Virus record (IMG/VR): IMGVR_UViG_3300031277_000001
Coordinates: 1-64,000 of that record
DNA: 64,000 nucleotides
Strand: one strand, 5' to 3'
Source of the DNA: a virus
Position numbers and translations under genes: made by a program. Positions 5,541 to 44,822 of the stretch are shown here, one piece after another. Position 1 is the first letter of the stretch, and the number at the start of each line of letters is the position of its first letter. Below the pieces are notes generated by a model. It was not told where the DNA came from and made no database searches. It was given only the letters and a program-made list of their open reading frames with translations.

Positions 5541-6635
5541 CTACTTCTTCTCTTTGAGGACTCCCTTGCCCTTCTCCGTGACCACCACCGAGGTCCCTCC
5601 ACCAACGTCTCGCTCGGAGACGAACTTGATGAGACCTGCGTCGGCCATGTCGTCAAACATCTTGGAGTCCTTCTCGGGGATGTCCGCGGCGTCATCAAGG
5701 CTCTCCACGGAGGCCAGGGCAGACTTCACCTTCGCGTTGTCGTAGCCCTTGAGGACAGGACTGGACGACTCTTTCTTGTCAGGAGATCCCGCCTCTTTCA
5801 CGAAGTACGTCACGTAAGGAGTTATCCCCTTGCCAGGGACAGTCCTCACCCCAGCCTCTTTGTACACCTTGACAGTCTTGCCCTCGGCGCGTAGTTTCTT
5901 GGCTTCGGCGAGGGCGGCGGCCTTGGACCCCACCTTGGGCTCACCAGTACTCTGAGACCCACCACCTTGACCACTCCCGTACTCGTACTTGTAGTGCCTC
6001 GGACTTCCTGTCCGCTTCGTGTACTTAGCCTTCGCAAAGATCCTCTGGAACAGCGACGGCTTGGCGGTCCTGACCGACTTGTTGATGGGTGGAGGAATGG
6101 CCGCTTCCACCAAGGAGCGGATCACCTGCTGCAAGGGGTCGATCTTCCGCTCGTCCATGTGGTTGACCATCTTGAGCTGCTCCATCTTCTTCAGGACCAG
6201 CGTCTTCTCGTCTCCCTCGACTAGGTTCTCCTCCAGGACAGCCTTCAACTGGTCGATCTTGACTGCGATCTCCGCGTCCGTCAAGGCGAGCCTGAGGTCC
6301 ATGATGATCCCCAGGGCTCTGTTGATGGCCCAGCAGTTCAACCGCTTGGGACTCTCGGACACAGCCTCCGGACCAGGATACGACTTCTGGAGCTCCGCTG
6401 ACACCTCGCTGGGCTTCATCGCCTTCTTGTAGCCTATCCCGGCCTCACTGGCCGCTATGGCGATGGCCTGGTTCCTCTTGGTCACCACAGGACCCTTCTT
6501 AGATCCCGAGTGGAGCTCACCATGCTTGTACTCGTGCATGACCTTCCCGAACTTGTCGTCCTTCTTGGACTTCTTCTTTTTCTTCTTCCCCGACCCCTCT
6601 TCCTTCATGGATTTCGACAACAATGCTATGATCAT
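5541..6635 (-). CDS. DUF6496-like and YKR-motif protein
   Basis: 364 residues. After a lysine tract (GKKKKKKSKK) comes MHEYKHGELHSGSKKG followed by KRNQAIAIAASEAG, which matches the small DUF6496 type found in phage and bacterial proteins. Near residue 203 is KYTKRTGSPRHYKYEY, the fifth copy of the motif seen in the two large proteins downstream, here with Arg in place of the conserved Gly. The C-terminal part ends in GVLKEKK and resembles a short winged-helix-like segment (DMADAGLIKFV). It is likely a virion-associated protein by its company; no activity can be assigned. The ATG at 6635 overlaps the upstream gene by four bases. Confidence 0.8.
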   Translation of the reverse strand: MIIALLSKSMKEEGSGKKKKKKSKKDDKFGKVMHEYKHGELHSGSKKGPVVTKRNQAIAIAASEAGIGYKKAMKPSEVSAELQKSYPGPEAVSESPKRLNCWAINRALGIIMDLRLALTDAEIAVKIDQLKAVLEENLVEGDEKTLVLKKMEQLKMVNHMDERKIDPLQQVIRSLVEAAIPPPINKSVRTAKPSLFQRIFAKAKYTKRTGSPRHYKYEYGSGQGGGSQSTGEPKVGSKAAALAEAKKLRAEGKTVKVYKEAGVRTVPGKGITPYVTYFVKEAGSPDKKESSSPVLKGYDNAKVKSALASVESLDDAADIPEKDSKMFDDMADAGLIKFVSERDVGGGTSVVVTEKGKGVLKEKK

Positions 6636-6847
6636 GACGTCCTCCTTTTTAGTCTGTCACGCAGAGTCAGACGGACCTTCACGGCCACGTCCACCTCTGA
6701 CCTCTTGATTGGCTTGCCCAAGAAGTTGTTCTTAAAGGCAAACCAGAGAACCCACCAGAACCTCATCCTAGGCAGTTTCTCCAGCGTGCCTCCCTCGTTC
6801 GTCCGGAGATAGCAGGCATCTCCCATGACCTTGAAGTCACCTATCAT
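6632..6847 (-). CDS. Small hypothetical protein (71 aa)
   Basis: ATG at 6847 follows GGGGGGAGACG. The product has an aromatic, hydrophobic stretch in the middle (MRFWWVLWFAFKNNFLGK) that could sit in or on a membrane, flanked by basic residues. It overlaps genes on both sides, consistent with a translationally coupled chain. No family recognised. Confidence 0.7.
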   Translation of the reverse strand: MIGDFKVMGDACYLRTNEGGTLEKLPRMRFWWVLWFAFKNNFLGKPIKRSEVDVAVKVRLTLRDRLKRRTS

Positions 6848-6983
6848 CGTCTCCCCCCTTGCCCGTCAGGGCTCTCCTAAACAGGTCCAACATCTCGGGG
6901 CTACCATGCATCTTGCCATCATTACCCTTGCGCCCTTTGGGTGGGATGTATATCCCTGTGCTCCTCCCCTGCTCTTCACTCAC
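6837..6983 (-). CDS. Small hypothetical protein (48 aa, GTG start)
   Basis: GTG at 6983 overlaps the preceding TGA stop in a GTGA arrangement, and AGG-rich sequence lies just upstream inside the neighbouring gene. The 48-residue product begins SEEQGRSTGIYIPPKGRKG and ends GKGGDDDR. The tight overlaps at both ends argue that it is real although short. No homologue recognised. Confidence 0.6.
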   Translation of the reverse strand: MSEEQGRSTGIYIPPKGRKGNDGKMHGSPEMLDLFRRALTGKGGDDDR

Positions 6984-7225
6984 TGACACCACCTCCTCCA
7001 GAAGCGCTCCAGCCGCTCTTCCTCTCTCCTCCGCTGCCGGTATGCATACTGCTCCAGGGAGATCCTCTTCTTCGGCCGGGATCTGAGGAAGAAGAACTCA
7101 ATGAGTCCCTCAACAATTACCCACCTCATCTTCTTCTTCCTCTCCGGCAGGGAGTATATAGATTTGATGATTGTCTCATCATAATCGTAGGATTCCAATA
7201 GTTCATAAGCCTCCCGATCCGTCAT
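6980..7225 (-). CDS. Small basic helical protein (81 aa)
   Basis: ATG at 7225 is preceded by GGGAGGAAGGTG. The first half is acidic (TDREAYELLESYDYDETI), the second strongly basic (YRQRRREEERLERFWRRW). A longer in-frame extension upstream lacks a ribosome-binding site and overlaps a zinc-ribbon gene, so it is rejected. Function unknown. Confidence 0.7.
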   Translation of the reverse strand: MTDREAYELLESYDYDETIIKSIYSLPERKKKMRWVIVEGLIEFFFLRSRPKKRISLEQYAYRQRRREEERLERFWRRWCQ

Positions 7226-34566: not shown

Positions 34567-35319
34567 TTAAAAGGGCGTTCCTTCGAGATCTGGGTCACCT
34601 GCGTCCGACGCCATCTCCTTGGTGACGCGACGCGGCGTCTCGTTGGTTTCTTCCTCTTGCATCTCTCGTTCAAGGACGTCTTCGTAGTTGGTGTTGTCGA
34701 ATCCCTGGAGAGCTTCCTTGCGCTCCGTGCACGCTCCGCACTTGCCGCAGTGGTACTCTCCTCCCTTGTAGCACGTCCAGGTGTTCCTCCCGAAGTCGAT
34801 GCCGAGACCATGTCCGATGAGTCCTATGGCTCTCTTGGACAAGTAGATGTAGGGAGCCGCAATCATGATGTGCTCGTAAGTCCCCATGGCCATGGACTGA
34901 CTCATGGAGGCGATAAAGTTAGGACGACAGTCGGGATAGATGGCGTGATCTCCCGAGTGAACTCCTATCAAGACACCTGTGCAACCAGAAGATGCTGCAA
35001 CGGCACAGGCGATGGAAAGCATCATCCCGTTTCGAAAGGGAACAACCGTCTTCTTCTGGCTCTCGTCCTCGTAGTGCCCTTCGGGAATGTCATCACCCCC
35101 TTGGAGAAGATTTGATCGAAGCATGGGCAACAGCTGCGAGAGATCAATGACCTCATGGGGAACGCCCAAAGACTCGCAGTTCTTCTTGGCAAACTCCAGT
35201 TCTTTGAGATGCTTCTGTCCATAGAAGAAAGACAGTGCTTTCTTGATGTTCTCCTTTTCCTGGTGGAGCAAGGTGACACTATCCATTCCCCCCGACACGA
35301 TAATCAACTTATCTTTCAT
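34567..35319 (-). CDS. queC: 7-cyano-7-deazaguanine synthase
   Basis: 250 residues. The PP-loop SGGMDS at 9-14 binds ATP; VPFRNGMMLSIA and the four-Cys zinc site (CYKGGEYHCGKCGAC) near the C-terminus are characteristic of QueC. The enzyme turns 7-carboxy-7-deazaguanine into preQ0 with ammonia and ATP. It is a standalone QueC, without the amidotransferase fusion (Gat-QueC) of some phages. Part of the compact modification operon. Confidence 0.93.
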   Translation of the reverse strand: MKDKLIIVSGGMDSVTLLHQEKENIKKALSFFYGQKHLKELEFAKKNCESLGVPHEVIDLSQLLPMLRSNLLQGGDDIPEGHYEDESQKKTVVPFRNGMMLSIACAVAASSGCTGVLIGVHSGDHAIYPDCRPNFIASMSQSMAMGTYEHIMIAAPYIYLSKRAIGLIGHGLGIDFGRNTWTCYKGGEYHCGKCGACTERKEALQGFDNTNYEDVLEREMQEEETNETPRRVTKEMASDAGDPDLEGTPF

Positions 35320-35322
35320 ATC

Positions 35323-35904
35323 TTACCTCCCTACCAATGAAAGAAATTCTGCCCTGACTTCTGGCTGGAGGAATACTCCACGCAGGGCAGATGTGATAAT
35401 TTTGGATTCTTGTTGATATGCTCCCCGCATCTTCATGCAGTAATGTGTCCCTTCAACAAACACAGCCGAACCTCCTGACTGAATGCCTAAAAACAACTTG
35501 TTGGCAATATCCTCAGTCAAAGTCTCTTGAAGAACTGGGCGCTTAGCCAAAATAGAAGACAACCGAGCCAACTTTGATACACCAAGAACGCGGCCGGCGG
35601 GAATGTAGGCGAGGTTGACTGTGTACTCCACGGGGAGGAGATGATGGGGACACATCGAATAGACACGAATCCCTCGAGCTATGATCATCTCTTTACATTC
35701 CCCAGGAAATGTGGCAGAAAGAATCTTTTCTACCTGCATGTCAGTATCACGCAAGCCTCCGAAGATTTCTGCATAGGCTCGAGCAACACGAGCTGGGGTG
35801 TCTTTGAAGTTTTCATCTTGACTGTTCAAACCATAAAGAGAGGCGAGACCTTGTAGTATGAACGCCACTCCATCTTCAATCATCTGAGTTCCATCTCGTT
35901 CCAT
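35323..35904 (-). CDS. folE: GTP cyclohydrolase I
   Basis: 193 residues from ATG 35904, which shares bases with the queE stop (TAATG). The zinc ligands are visible in SMCPHHLLP and in THYCMKMRG, and RVLGVSKLAR is the conserved substrate-pocket segment. It makes dihydroneopterin triphosphate from GTP, the first step to queuosine-type bases (and folate). The placement between queE and queC assigns it to the deazaguanine pathway. Confidence 0.93.
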   Translation of the reverse strand: MERDGTQMIEDGVAFILQGLASLYGLNSQDENFKDTPARVARAYAEIFGGLRDTDMQVEKILSATFPGECKEMIIARGIRVYSMCPHHLLPVEYTVNLAYIPAGRVLGVSKLARLSSILAKRPVLQETLTEDIANKLFLGIQSGGSAVFVEGTHYCMKMRGAYQQESKIITSALRGVFLQPEVRAEFLSLVGR

Positions 35905-36548
35905 TATCGCACTCCTATCAACTTGTGGATTTGCAACGACAATCTCCACTCCAAAGGGAGCTTCTTGACTGCATCAACTGTCGCTTCAACATTCTTGTTG
36001 TCGTTGGGCTGCAAGAAAAAGTGATAAAATCCCTCACGTATGCCTATTCTTCCCAAGAGGGGTTGATAAGGCATAGCAGGAACAACGTATCTTCGCAGCT
36101 CCTCAATAGACTGCCCTGTATACACGAGTTTCAACTCGTCTCCAACGCGCTGCTTCCAGTTGAAATCCTTAGGAGAAACTGTCAACCACTCCACCTTACG
36201 ATGATCAAAATGAAAGTCTCCATTCGTCTCCACATGAACACGAAAACAAGAAGAATGCAAGCATTCTACCAAGTCAAGGAGACCTTGCATCTGGAACGTA
36301 GGCTCGCCCCCAGTGATTACAACACGGTTGCAGTCGGATCTCTCGGCAAGAGTGAGGACCTCGTCCATGATCTCATCGCAACTCATCACAGTAAATGGCA
36401 AGTGAATTGTGTCGCAAAACGAACAAGTTCTATTGCACCCTGAGAAGCGAACAAATATGGCGGGGGTCCCTGTCCAATAACCTTCACCCTGGATGGAGTA
36501 GAAAATCTCGTTGATCTTAATCTTCAACTCAGGACTGGTTGCCGTCAT
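35904..36548 (-). CDS. queE: 7-carboxy-7-deazaguanine synthase (radical SAM)
   Basis: 214 residues. FSGCNRTCSFC gives the CX3CX2C cluster motif at C38, C42 and C45, after the substrate-binding YSIQGEG near residue 17. VVITGGEPTFQ is the SAM-binding GGEP motif. QueE rearranges 6-carboxytetrahydropterin into the deazapurine ring using a [4Fe-4S] cluster and SAM. It overlaps queD by 20 bases. Confidence 0.93.
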   Translation of the reverse strand: MTATSPELKIKINEIFYSIQGEGYWTGTPAIFVRFSGCNRTCSFCDTIHLPFTVMSCDEIMDEVLTLAERSDCNRVVITGGEPTFQMQGLLDLVECLHSSCFRVHVETNGDFHFDHRKVEWLTVSPKDFNWKQRVGDELKLVYTGQSIEELRRYVVPAMPYQPLLGRIGIREGFYHFFLQPNDNKNVEATVDAVKKLPLEWRLSLQIHKLIGVR

Positions 36549-36861
36549 ACGTCACCACCGAACCTTCACTCTCCTCCACATCCACCTTGTAGCAGTAGGG
36601 GATCTGATCACACAACCACTTTGCAATGTTCTCCGCCGTGGGCTGCTCAACATAATCGTTGATAAAGTGATGATCAAGAACGTTGACCGTCTCCTTGATC
36701 TTCGAAAAGTCAAACACCATCCCATTCTCATCGAGACTTTCACGACGACAGTATATTGTAATTTTCCACGCATGCCCGTGAACATTCTGACACTTCGACG
36801 GATAATTGAGATCCAGTCGATGCGCTGCTGCTACAACAACCACCTTCTTCAAGTAGAACAC
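36529..36861 (-). CDS. queD: 6-carboxytetrahydropterin synthase
   Basis: 110 residues with zinc ligands His14, His28 and His30 (NVHGH), catalytic Cys24, DHHFIND at 63-69 and PTAEN. QueD converts dihydroneopterin triphosphate to 6-carboxytetrahydropterin. The start is GTG at 36861, after GGAGAGGTGAAGAA inside the short gene upstream. Confidence 0.92.
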   Translation of the reverse strand: MFYLKKVVVVAAAHRLDLNYPSKCQNVHGHAWKITIYCRRESLDENGMVFDFSKIKETVNVLDHHFINDYVEQPTAENIAKWLCDQIPYCYKVDVEESEGSVVTYDGNQS

Positions 36862-41398: not shown

Positions 41399-41902
41399 CT
41401 AAAAAAGTTGGTAGCAATGCCACCAGTCCTTTATCTCCTCCAACGAGATGTCAACAACTTTCACCGCCCAGGAGAGCTTCTTCGTGAAGAATTCTCGAAT
41501 AGAATTGAATGTGTGTCTCTTCTCGGGTAGGGAGAAGATGTAAGCAAGGATCTGCTGAGCACTATTGGACAACTCCGTCGTGATGGACTCCTGCAATTCA
41601 AGCTTCTGGAGAAACCGATCAAACACATCAGTATGTGACAACGTGTCAAGAATCGACTCATCTTGATATTCCACCTTGACGAGATCTTTGTTCTGACGAT
41701 AATAGAGATCTGCGATCCCTTTCAATCTGTACCACAAGAAGGTAGTAAACTGACCTAACTTCTCATCGTACTTCAATAAAGCTTCTACAAAGATGTAGAA
41801 AGCTTCTGAGCACATCTCATCATAGTCAAGACCATTACTTCTCGCTGCCCTCCAGGCTTGGTGTAGGATCTGCCTCTTGCATCTCTTGAACTCCTGCGTC
41901 AT
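41399..41902 (-). CDS. Sigma-factor-like protein (region 2)
   Basis: 167 residues from ATG 41902. LDYDEMCSEAFYIFVEALLKYDEKLGQFTTFLWYRLKGIADLYYR matches sigma-70 region 2 (-10 recognition and core binding), split here as DYDEMCSEAFYIF and KYDEKLGQFTTFLWYR. A C-terminal region of about 50 residues could serve as a reduced region 4 (NSAQQILAYIFSLPEKRHTF). Phage sigma factors redirect host RNA polymerase to later genes; the bipartite promoter elements in this window are candidate targets. It overlaps the Rad50 C-half gene by 68 bases. Confidence 0.65.
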   Translation of the reverse strand: MTQEFKRCKRQILHQAWRAARSNGLDYDEMCSEAFYIFVEALLKYDEKLGQFTTFLWYRLKGIADLYYRQNKDLVKVEYQDESILDTLSHTDVFDRFLQKLELQESITTELSNSAQQILAYIFSLPEKRHTFNSIREFFTKKLSWAVKVVDISLEEIKDWWHCYQLF

Positions 41903-42557
41903 CACTTCGGTACTTACGTTCACGTGATTCCTCCCCTTTCAAAACTACTACATGAGATTTCTTGTATCCATCACGACCTTCCCTCAATTTGACAGAAAAG
42001 AGTTTGTCTGCAATCTCTACAAGATTTTCTTCATGAGAAACAATTACAACTTGCAACTTCAATCTCTTGCTCAACTTCTTCAACATCTCACTCGCCTTGG
42101 GACGCAAGTCTCTCGAGAGAAGGCGGAAAGGCTCATCAAGTACAATGAACTTCCTCGTCCTGCCGAGGGACCAGACGGCAAGACGGAGGGCGAAGGAGCA
42201 CACGTCCGAGACACCTCCTCCTGACGAGTCTTGTGGATCTATACTAACACCATTACGTAAAAAGGTCAACTGTGCCTCCGTCTTTCCTCTCTTTATCTCA
42301 AAGTTGACCTTGAAGTCGTACTCCCCGGGAAAGACTGCGTCAATAGCAAGTTGAACGATGTCTTCAAGATGAAACTTGAGAGATTCTTGCGTCTCCTTAG
42401 CTACCTGCTGGATTAGAGCTTGAGCCTTCTCCACACTTTCAAGAAGTTGCAGAGAAGACTTCTTCTTCTCAATGGTCTCTGAGATCTTCTTCTTCAAGAA
42501 AGATCTCCGCGCCTCGGCCTGGAGAAGAATGGCACTATAGTCCTCCAAGTTCCTCAT
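41835..42557 (-). CDS. Rad50/SbcC-like ATPase, C-terminal half (split gene)
   Basis: 240 residues. After an N-terminal coiled coil come SSGGGVSDVCSFALRLAVW at 111-129 (ABC signature) and KFIVLDEPFRLL with Walker B Asp141/Glu142, then VVIVSHEENL with the H-loop His. It lacks a Walker A and the zinc hook. The matching N-terminal half with Walker A is encoded separately at 43761-44822. Together they would form the composite ATPase of a gp46/gp47-like end-processing complex. Confidence 0.85.
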   Translation of the reverse strand: MRNLEDYSAILLQAEARRSFLKKKISETIEKKKSSLQLLESVEKAQALIQQVAKETQESLKFHLEDIVQLAIDAVFPGEYDFKVNFEIKRGKTEAQLTFLRNGVSIDPQDSSGGGVSDVCSFALRLAVWSLGRTRKFIVLDEPFRLLSRDLRPKASEMLKKLSKRLKLQVVIVSHEENLVEIADKLFSVKLREGRDGYKKSHVVVLKGEESRERKYRSDDAGVQEMQEADPTPSLEGSEK

Positions 42558-42802
42558 GACACGGAATCCCAATCATACGAAGATTCAATCCTCGCCAAGA
42601 GAACAGCTATCCTTCTCTCTCCTTCCTTGATGTCGTCAACCAGAGACTTGATCTTGGCCTCAACCGCTGGGAGATCATCACATTGAAACTCGTCCTTCCA
42701 CCTCTTCTTGATGGACTCCATGACTCCCTCGGCCTTGGACTTCTTTGCCTTCAAGGTGTCAATCTTCTCCTTGATCTTCTTGATGTCTTCAATCGCTATC
42801 AC
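42554..42802 (-). CDS. Small coiled-coil protein between Mre11 and Rad50 C-half (82 aa)
   Basis: IKKIKEKIDTLKAKKSKAEGVMESIKKRW and later DDIKEGERRIAVLLARIES form a helical hairpin. One Cys only. It overlaps both neighbours by four bases. It may be a remnant or a separately made part of the Rad50 coiled-coil arm, or a subunit bridging the two halves. Confidence 0.7.
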   Translation of the reverse strand: MIAIEDIKKIKEKIDTLKAKKSKAEGVMESIKKRWKDEFQCDDLPAVEAKIKSLVDDIKEGERRIAVLLARIESSYDWDSVS

Positions 42803-43758
42803 TTAGATCCTCCCACTTGATCCAAAAGTCTTTCAATCACATCTACAATAGAGGGATCCACACCCTTCATCTTGACTCGAAGGTTCTGAACGAAGTCCAA
42901 TGAAACCTGAGTACCTCTCTCCAGTGTAGATATGAACGCCTCGATCCTTTCGTCACGTTCTTGCTGTCTCTTTATGTGATCGTTCGACACTGTCCCCTTG
43001 TCAGGAACAGGAACAAACTCGACCTCATCTCTGACTAGATCAATAAAGTAGAAACCTGCTTGGTAATCAACAAGATCTGCAGACTGACGCACCAGGCACC
43101 CCGGATTTACTACCTTCTGAGTACCCTTCTCCCAGAGGAAGTGCCTATGATTGTCCCCCAAGCAGATGTAGCGAGCATCTGGAAACATCTTGGCAAGATC
43201 TTCCGCAAGGACACCTTCATCAGTAGGAGGCATGTCTTTCTTGGATGCAAAAGTGAGTTGATGAAGAAATACTAACTCTCTATCATCATACCCGCAGTCG
43301 CAGTCACCTCCTAAACCACAAGCACAATCATCTGCATGCGCTGTCCTTCGCGATTCCCGGATCTCCCCAAAGTGCAATGAGACTCCGATGTCATCAAGGG
43401 GGTGCAAAGGAGTTCCTCCCATCTTTGCGATAGTCCAAATATTCCCAAAAGACGACGCCATCATGTTGTCCAAGTTGTGATAGAGAAGATCATGCTGTCC
43501 CGCAAGAATGTATATCCCTCCCCCTTCCACGTGATACTGACTCACAACTTGAAAGAAGAGATTGATAATAGAAGGATGCACGTGTGACTTGTGACAAAGA
43601 TCTCCGCTCAGAGCAATTGAAGCTTTCTTCTCGTTAGCAAAACTAACAACAAACTCTAGAGCCTCTCTCTGCACTGCTAACCAGTCAGCGTCGTTCCTAC
43701 AAACAGGCATGTCCTCACGTAAGTGGAGATCTGCAACTGCACAAAGACGTTCAATCAA
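42799..43758 (-). CDS. Mre11/SbcD-like nuclease
   Basis: 319 residues with phosphoesterase motifs ADLHL, SGDLCHKS, AGQHD (usual GNHD), LHQLTF and LGDNHRH. The enzyme would be a metal-dependent exo/endonuclease acting with Rad50. An unusual Cys-rich insertion, DDCACGLGGDCDCG, sits near residues 143-156 before the conserved His. It is encoded between the two Rad50 halves. The T4 counterpart is gp47, which processes ends for recombination-dependent replication. Confidence 0.88.
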   Translation of the reverse strand: MIERLCAVADLHLREDMPVCRNDADWLAVQREALEFVVSFANEKKASIALSGDLCHKSHVHPSIINLFFQVVSQYHVEGGGIYILAGQHDLLYHNLDNMMASSFGNIWTIAKMGGTPLHPLDDIGVSLHFGEIRESRRTAHADDCACGLGGDCDCGYDDRELVFLHQLTFASKKDMPPTDEGVLAEDLAKMFPDARYICLGDNHRHFLWEKGTQKVVNPGCLVRQSADLVDYQAGFYFIDLVRDEVEFVPVPDKGTVSNDHIKRQQERDERIEAFISTLERGTQVSLDFVQNLRVKMKGVDPSIVDVIERLLDQVGGSK

Positions 43759-43760
43759 AT

Positions 43761-44822
43761 CTATTCCCCTTTCAACTTCCCTGTTCCATCACATAAAGGA
43801 CACACGTCGGGCAAAGACTCGTACAAGTCGTGAATCTCTTTATCAACTTCCTCAACAATACGAGAAGATGTGTTGTATATAGATAGAACAAGATCTAAAG
43901 CTTTCCTCTTGTCGTCCAGATCTTGTACCATAGAAATCTTGTTCTGGACGTCATCAACAAGAGCTTCAATAGGAGAAATATCAATAGATGTCACTACCTC
44001 TTGAGCTTCTACAAACTCCTTCTTCAAGGAGTCCAACTGACCTCTCTTCCGAGAAAGTTCTCCAAGAGAAGTTGACAAAACTTCTACTTTACCAATGAGG
44101 AGCTCTACTTCCTGCATGTCAACCTTGTCACATACCTCTAGTGCTTCTCGATATTCTTCTCCAGTATCTCGCAAGGCTTGGAGGACACCATGCAAAGGAA
44201 ATATCATTGATTCCATTTGCACTGCTTCATCAACAACCTCACGAGCAGCAATCAACCAAGAAAAAGAGTCGTACTCCTTCTGCAATTCAACAAGCTCCGC
44301 CTCAAGGGAATCCCGAGTAGAACGACTCTGCCTCTTCGTGGACTCCACAAGTGAGAGCACTTCATCTATAACGTCGAGGCGAACAGTCTTGTTGAGGATC
44401 CTCGCCACCTCTCCTGCCCCGTTGGACAAAAGGAAGTGAGGATCAAGCTGCTTTTGGATGTTGATATCTGTGATATTAAGAAGATCAGAAACCTCATGAG
44501 GAACATCACGACGAATAGCATCAAACTTCTCCTGGTTAACGAGATACCTGTTGATGTCCCTGTGCCGAAATCTCGTAATAGTATTGTCATCAAACGAGAG
44601 AGTGACCTGAGTGGGCTGCTTGATAGTCCCCTTGTCCGTGATGTTCCAGTGAGAAACTATTCCAAGCCCGTCTGGTTTGTTCTGCAACAACCAGTAGAAA
44701 GCACGAAGGATGGCTGTCTTGCCCTTGTCAGAAGACCCTATGATCACATTAATGCCTGAGCAGAATTCCAACACAGTGTCTTCATGAGACTGAAAGTTCT
44801 CAATATGCAGTTTGTCAATCAT
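43761..44822 (-). CDS. Rad50/SbcC-like ATPase, N-terminal half with zinc-hook motif (split gene)
   Basis: 353 residues. Walker A GSSDKGKT at 29-36 follows HIENFQSHEDTVLEF, the typical Rad50 N-terminus. A long coiled coil leads to CPLC at 341-344, the zinc-hook CXXC, and the protein ends nine residues later. So the chain stops just after the hook where an intact Rad50 would turn back. ATG 44822 follows AAGGGGCCC; a longer frame back to 44891 would overlap the promoter and is rejected. Confidence 0.88.
   Translation of the reverse strand: MIDKLHIENFQSHEDTVLEFCSGINVIIGSSDKGKTAILRAFYWLLQNKPDGLGIVSHWNITDKGTIKQPTQVTLSFDDNTITRFRHRDINRYLVNQEKFDAIRRDVPHEVSDLLNITDINIQKQLDPHFLLSNGAGEVARILNKTVRLDVIDEVLSLVESTKRQSRSTRDSLEAELVELQKEYDSFSWLIAAREVVDEAVQMESMIFPLHGVLQALRDTGEEYREALEVCDKVDMQEVELLIGKVEVLSTSLGELSRKRGQLDSLKKEFVEAQEVVTSIDISPIEALVDDVQNKISMVQDLDDKRKALDLVLSIYNTSSRIVEEVDKEIHDLYESLPDVCPLCDGTGKLKGE

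Follow-up and report, generated by a model that had tools for sequence, protein, structure and literature searches.

A Rad50 homologue carried by two genes and broken at its hook, with fused and circularly permuted relatives on plasmids

In models of Rad50 and of SMC-like machines, one continuous chain ties the ATPase head to a distant hook, and signals pass along paired arms. The closest described relatives of the phage locus analysed here are single-chain phage SbcC/Rad50 proteins (T4 gp46, T5 D13 and SPO1 gp21.9) and E. coli SbcC, which share with it the ABC lobes, a CxxC hook and an SbcD/Mre11 gene nearby. The hook of those proteins lies mid-chain (position 506 of 1048 residues in E. coli SbcC, 288 of 560 in T4 gp46, 309 of 612 in T5 D13 and 324 of 637 in SPO1 gp21.9), whereas the split form has its hook at the end of a chain and a second gene for lobe II. 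Lobes I and II also stand on separate chains in the two-chain Rad50 catalytic domain (PDB 1f2t, 1ii8 and 3qkr), an engineered form made in the laboratory with the arms removed; the phage split, by contrast, is natural, keeps arm and hook, and includes a third subunit.

Mre11-Rad50 fusion proteins are described from Mimivirus, plasmids and Bacillus phage 0305phi8-36 in a 2011 paper, where the fusions of 0305phi8-36 and Anaerostipes are reported to be without one P-loop segment (PMC3175470). These are perhaps members of the same lineage as the split Rad50; in the accessible part of that account, no mention was found of the other half, of a small protein or of a permuted form such as those discussed below. 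The N-terminal half (N-half) and C-terminal half (C-half) families are catalogued apart in PHROG, as phrog_16465 (“exonuclease”) and phrog_15167 (“ATPase”), that is, as unrelated functions and not as two parts of Rad50. No account of Rad50 in split or circularly permuted form turned up in the literature searched, whose coverage leaves out most subscription journals.

The four-gene module

The window, i.e. the whole stretch of DNA analysed, comprises positions 1 to 64,000 of IMG/VR virus record IMGVR_UViG_3300031277_000001 and is nearly the entire record (65,465 bases). Its positions 41835-44822 carry, on the minus strand, four tightly coupled genes in the order N-half, Mre11, 82-residue protein, C-half. 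The N-half gene (43761..44822, 353 aa, ATG start) encodes lobe I, the arm and a terminal hook, and the TTG start of the Mre11/SbcD-like nuclease gene (42799..43758, 319 aa) follows its stop after a 2-nt gap. The mre11 stop overlaps the GTG start of the gene for the 82-residue helical hairpin protein (42554..42802) as GTGA, and the stop of the latter overlaps an ATG at 42557 as ATGA, which makes this ATG the likely start of the C-half (41835..42557, 240 aa), consisting of an arm helix and lobe II; the open reading frame itself reaches 42572 with a TTG start (41835-42572, 245 aa). These junctions suggest translational coupling of the genes. An intact Rad50 is absent from the whole record, which contains a single lobe-I match and a single lobe-II match. 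The preliminary description of this DNA, made from the letters alone, had placed Mre11 and an 82-residue protein between a hook-bearing N-half, ending nine residues after the hook, and a hookless C-half; the coordinates and the motifs given below agree with it on every one of these points.

The N-half carries Walker A (GSSDKGKT, residues 29-36, 44715..44738, minus strand), in which G34 and K35 are invariant in an alignment of 38 N-halves. The CxxC zinc hook of Rad50/SbcC is present as CPLC (residues 341-344, 43791..43802, minus strand), but at the chain end: the protein terminates in CPLCDGTGKLKGE, nine residues past the motif. Residues C341, P342 and C344 are conserved in at least 90% of the same 38 sequences, and zinc binding is predicted. 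The N-half matches AAA_23 of Pfam (5.7e-15) and phrog_16465 (3.7e-31), and its profile matches lobe I of archaeal Rad50 in the PDB (4.5e-13). The AlphaFold2 model (mean pLDDT 84.7, pTM 0.41, hook region poorly defined) has a head followed by helices at residues 149-185, 189-233, 236-279 and 283-335, with breaks 47 and 46 residues apart. Searched against the PDB with Foldseek, this model finds as its best matches lobe-I chains of Pyrococcus Rad50 and SMC heads.

The complementary motifs are found in the C-half, all on the minus strand: the ABC signature (SSGGGV, the start of SSGGGVSDV, 42210..42227), Walker B (KFIVLDEPF, 42126..42152) and the H-loop histidine of VIVSHEE (42033..42035). G119 and G120 of the signature and D146 and E147 of Walker B are invariant in the C-half alignment, and Walker A and CxxC are both absent from the C-half sequence of the window. 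This protein matches phrog_15167 (2.6e-33) and SMC_N of Pfam (4.8e-8), and its profile matches lobe II of archaeal Rad50 (1.4e-16). Rad50 models of NCBIfam are among the top matches for both halves alike, and the PDB matches of both profiles include entries in which the lobes are separate chains (1f2t_A/1f2t_B and 3qkr_A/3qkr_B). Both Rad50-homologous lobes are thus present with their motifs (Walker A in lobe I; signature, Walker B and H-loop in lobe II), on two genes rather than on one polypeptide with the N-lobe first. Elsewhere in the family, the C-halves of loci L008, L009 and L010 lack the H-loop histidine (MVG...DVAG), and their ATP hydrolysis may differ from that of the others. The C-half of Bacillus velezensis plasmid p3 (L071, 6001-6636) is annotated as “chromosome partitioning protein ParA”, which is probably a misannotation.

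The Mre11 profile of the window matches Pf Mre11 (1ii7) at 2.5e-8. The phosphoesterase motifs of Mre11/SbcD (DxH, GD, GNHD, H and GDxH) are found as DLH, GD, GQHD, H and GDNHRH, the N to Q change in motif III being one that relatives also carry. At about residues 143-158 the protein of the window (42799-43758) has a cysteine-rich insertion, DDCACGLGGDCDCGYDD, that is absent from the aligned relatives. An mre11 gene adjoins the Rad50 genes here and at most of the other loci. In L015/L016 (7808-9198) it is in two pieces, interrupted by a homing-endonuclease-like ORF, likely an intron or inserted mobile gene.

Recurrence of the split and its rejoined relatives

The same module occurs at more than 40 non-redundant loci in IMG/VR phages, Bacillus prophages, cultured phages (vB_BboS-125 and Mvi-JY20) and Firmicutes plasmids. 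Scanning with the N-half alignment matched 60 IMG/VR loci and gave no match among genome contigs. Gene order was determined by scoring all ORFs at the loci with profiles of the four parts. The order N-half, Mre11, small protein, C-half is found at 25 non-redundant loci, counting the window and Microcystis phage Mvi-JY20, and the order N-half, small protein, C-half, Mre11 at 18, many of them near-identical Bacillus prophages. The closest annotated case, Bacillus phage vB_BboS-125, has an N-half labelled “exonuclease”, a 78-aa gene, a C-half labelled “ATPase” and then an mre11 gene (L002, 8247-9227) that is missing from the public annotation.

Among 55 full-length N-halves, Walker A is present in 54 and Walker B in none, and 52 carry CPxC close to their C-terminal end, as a rule some 10 residues from the stop; neither Walker A nor CxxC occurs in any of 49 C-halves. 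CPxC is missing from the N-halves of L049 and Mvi-JY20. In Microbacterium phage Magritte the halves lie about 93 kb apart (L003, 2839-3891; L004, 284-934), and the N-half is without CxxC. Three candidate relatives were rejected: Virgibacillus phage Mimir87, considered as a split relative, has a 506-aa single chain with a central CxxC, and E. coli phages IME392 and EP_H11 have single chains in canonical order with a central hook. IME392 was kept as a single-chain control.

Two types of natural fusion join pieces of the module. Plasmids pGspE55-1 of Geobacillus and pSC2 of Paenibacillus polymyxa encode Mre11 joined in one protein with lobe I, arm and hook (802 and 841 aa, respectively), and the fusion gene is followed by a small coil gene and then by a separate lobe II. 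In the second type, the circular permutant, a single chain runs through lobe II, lobe I and arm, with a CxxC 7-19 residues from the C-terminus. Permutants are found on megaplasmids of Pseudomonas (pMPPla107, pBASL58 and others), Aeromonas, Vibrio, Variovorax, Bosea, Alteromonas and Methylorubrum (plasmid loci L075, L076 and L081-L090), where they are annotated as AAA family ATPase or hypothetical. The genome-contig scan with the permutant alignment returned one plasmid, and the viral-contig scan returned none. Every permutant examined has a short coil gene on its 5' side, recognised from the profile or visually (the profile scores being weak in several), and most have an Mre11-like gene on the 3' side. 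In some Aeromonas and Pseudomonas permutant loci (L076, 7737-8510; L090, 5808-6821) this gene has lost the phosphoesterase motifs and possibly encodes a nuclease-dead Mre11; the gene that follows the Variovorax and Bosea permutants has kept a recognisable metallophosphoesterase.

The occurrence of both fusion types argues that the pieces work together, and nothing else speaks as strongly for the halves belonging to one ATPase and for the hook break being the stable feature. The same break in dozens of phages, prophages and plasmids, together with rejoining in reverse order, therefore points to an old, working design and not to an error. Judged from sequence, the split is thus an old and widespread lineage rather than the oddity of a single phage, and the 82-residue protein counts among the constant components of the module, both of which go beyond the preliminary description.

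In a tree built from the two lobes, the split, Mre11-fused and permuted (“apex-open”) forms separate from single-chain Rad50 with bootstrap support of 97 (four controls) or 91 (seven controls; the T5 control sequence is AY543070). The permutants form one clade (bootstrap 100), and the split form of the Microcystis phage branches outside the split-plus-permuted group. This topology favours a single ancient split, after which the lobes were fused again in permuted order. When the tree is built from lobe I only, two single-chain proteins of phages are not cleanly separated from the apex-open group; a common origin is therefore likely but short of proven.

Arms, hairpin protein and assembly

Very probably, the four genes encode one phage Mre11-Rad50 DNA-end nuclease resembling SbcCD and gp46-47, with a Rad50 opened at the arm apex and a head put together in trans. 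The N-half would fold as lobe I and continue as a long arm of helices of about 46 residues up to the CPxC hook, and the C-half would begin as a short arm helix (about 60 residues) and fold as lobe II. At the head, lobes I and II from the separate chains would pair to form the ABC ATPase, bind Mre11 and dimerise with ATP; the ATP site would be built with a second lobe pair and would drive Mre11 as in SbcCD and T4 gp46/47, families in which lobe-driven action of Mre11 is established. The hooks of two N-halves would share one zinc, and the small hairpin protein would have a structural part, completing or capping the short descending arm at the chain opening. In support of this reading, the motifs of the halves complement each other, the lobes are homologous to those of Rad50, gene order is conserved and the junctions overlap, and the lobes occur fused and permuted; the PDB entries with lobes on separate chains and the two-lobe tree also speak for it. 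From these observations we infer the assembly, the coordination of zinc, the position of the hairpin and a nuclease function in recombination or replication of the phage. That the halves assemble in trans and that only one subunit type bears hooks had already been proposed in the preliminary description, and the complementary motifs, ordered co-occurrence and natural fusions make this the best reading of the sequences.

The AlphaFold2 model of the 82-residue protein has helices at residues 2-39 and 44-75 (mean pLDDT 91.6), and since a loop of four residues joins them, the chain is predicted to fold back into a hairpin. Searches against the PDB and Pfam returned generic coiled coils only, and the PHROG search was likewise without specific homology. 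This lack of specific homology, and an N-arm length that does not track the hairpin protein, would suit a loader, a regulator or a factor binding Mre11 or DNA in place of an arm subunit. We consider such a role unlikely, if far from negligible. A homologue of the small protein adjoins the C-half across the family; its gene usually lies directly 5' of the C-half, stays there even where Mre11 has moved or been fused, and also precedes the permutants. Because of this constancy beside the C-half, the hairpin is the obvious candidate for the piece that would complete the short arm. Locus L036 has two small-coil-like genes (5542-5835 and 6774-7019), one on either side of mre11.

The antiparallel arm helices of matching length that characterise Rad50/SbcC are not found here. 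From lobe I to the hook, the N-arm measures 147-348 residues in the family and 193 in the window, and the C-arm 55-71 residues in most C-halves and about 60 in the window. The opened-apex reading consequently leaves the partner for most of the N-arm unaccounted for, as the N-arm is far longer than the C-arm plus one hairpin. The N-halves without the hook motif (Magritte, L049 and Mvi-JY20), the wide spacing of the halves in Magritte and the blurred boundary in the lobe-I tree also count against this reading. N-arm lengths step by about 46-50 residues, in both odd and even counts of such units, a pattern that is only suggestive because the sequences are related. C-arms too short for pairing along the full N-arm, and arm units in odd as well as even number, would fit hooks acting within one complex, where two single-helix N-arms lie side by side and the terminal CPxC motifs close a rod that clamps DNA without bridging two DNAs. 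The arms of canonical Rad50 are antiparallel pairs, which speaks against this arrangement, and we hold it to be rather improbable. A broader proposal is somewhat better placed, although still tentative and short of an even chance: that mobile elements carry an ancient apex-open lineage of Rad50, in which the chain is cut at the hook, a dedicated hairpin subunit completes the short arm, the hook-bearing N-arms act singly and unattached, opening, exchanging or pairing in parallel, and the later permuted re-fusion of the megaplasmids has kept the open apex. If true, covalent continuity through the hook would be dispensable for a working Mre11-Rad50 machine.

It is very unlikely that the halves form no single ATPase and that each has other partners. 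The distance of about 93 kb in Magritte would be consistent with such independence, but neither half has a complete ABC site, and the single-chain permutants unite exactly these two lobes. Even less probable is rejoining of the halves after expression by a split intein, trans-splicing or a frameshift. A normal Rad50 would result, but Mre11 and the small gene intervene, the 353-aa and 240-aa proteins are without extra intein-like sequence, both halves start and stop at codons of their own, with ATGA/GTGA overlaps, and the permutant joins the halves in the opposite order. An origin of the split in faulty sequencing or assembly, or in the decay of an intact Rad50 into a pseudogene, has in its favour only the rarity of a split Rad50 and is as good as ruled out by dozens of independent loci, including complete phage and plasmid records, with motifs conserved in both halves and with conserved ends and gene overlaps; a sequencing error or rearrangement was the outcome named in the preliminary description as fatal to its claim.

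Under the preferred reading, opened at the apex and assembled in trans, the module has its chain cut at the hook, the lengths of its arm strands uncoupled and a small helical subunit added, and in one branch the lobes are rejoined in reverse. It offers natural material with which the contributions of hook, arm pairing and chain continuity to tethering and nuclease control can be tested, and it proposes a function for many proteins now labelled hypothetical, exonuclease, ATPase or ParA. Elsewhere in the window, at 34567-36861, genes resembling those of QueC, FolE, QueE and QueD were recognised by eye, which suggests 7-deazaguanine synthesis, perhaps for DNA modification.
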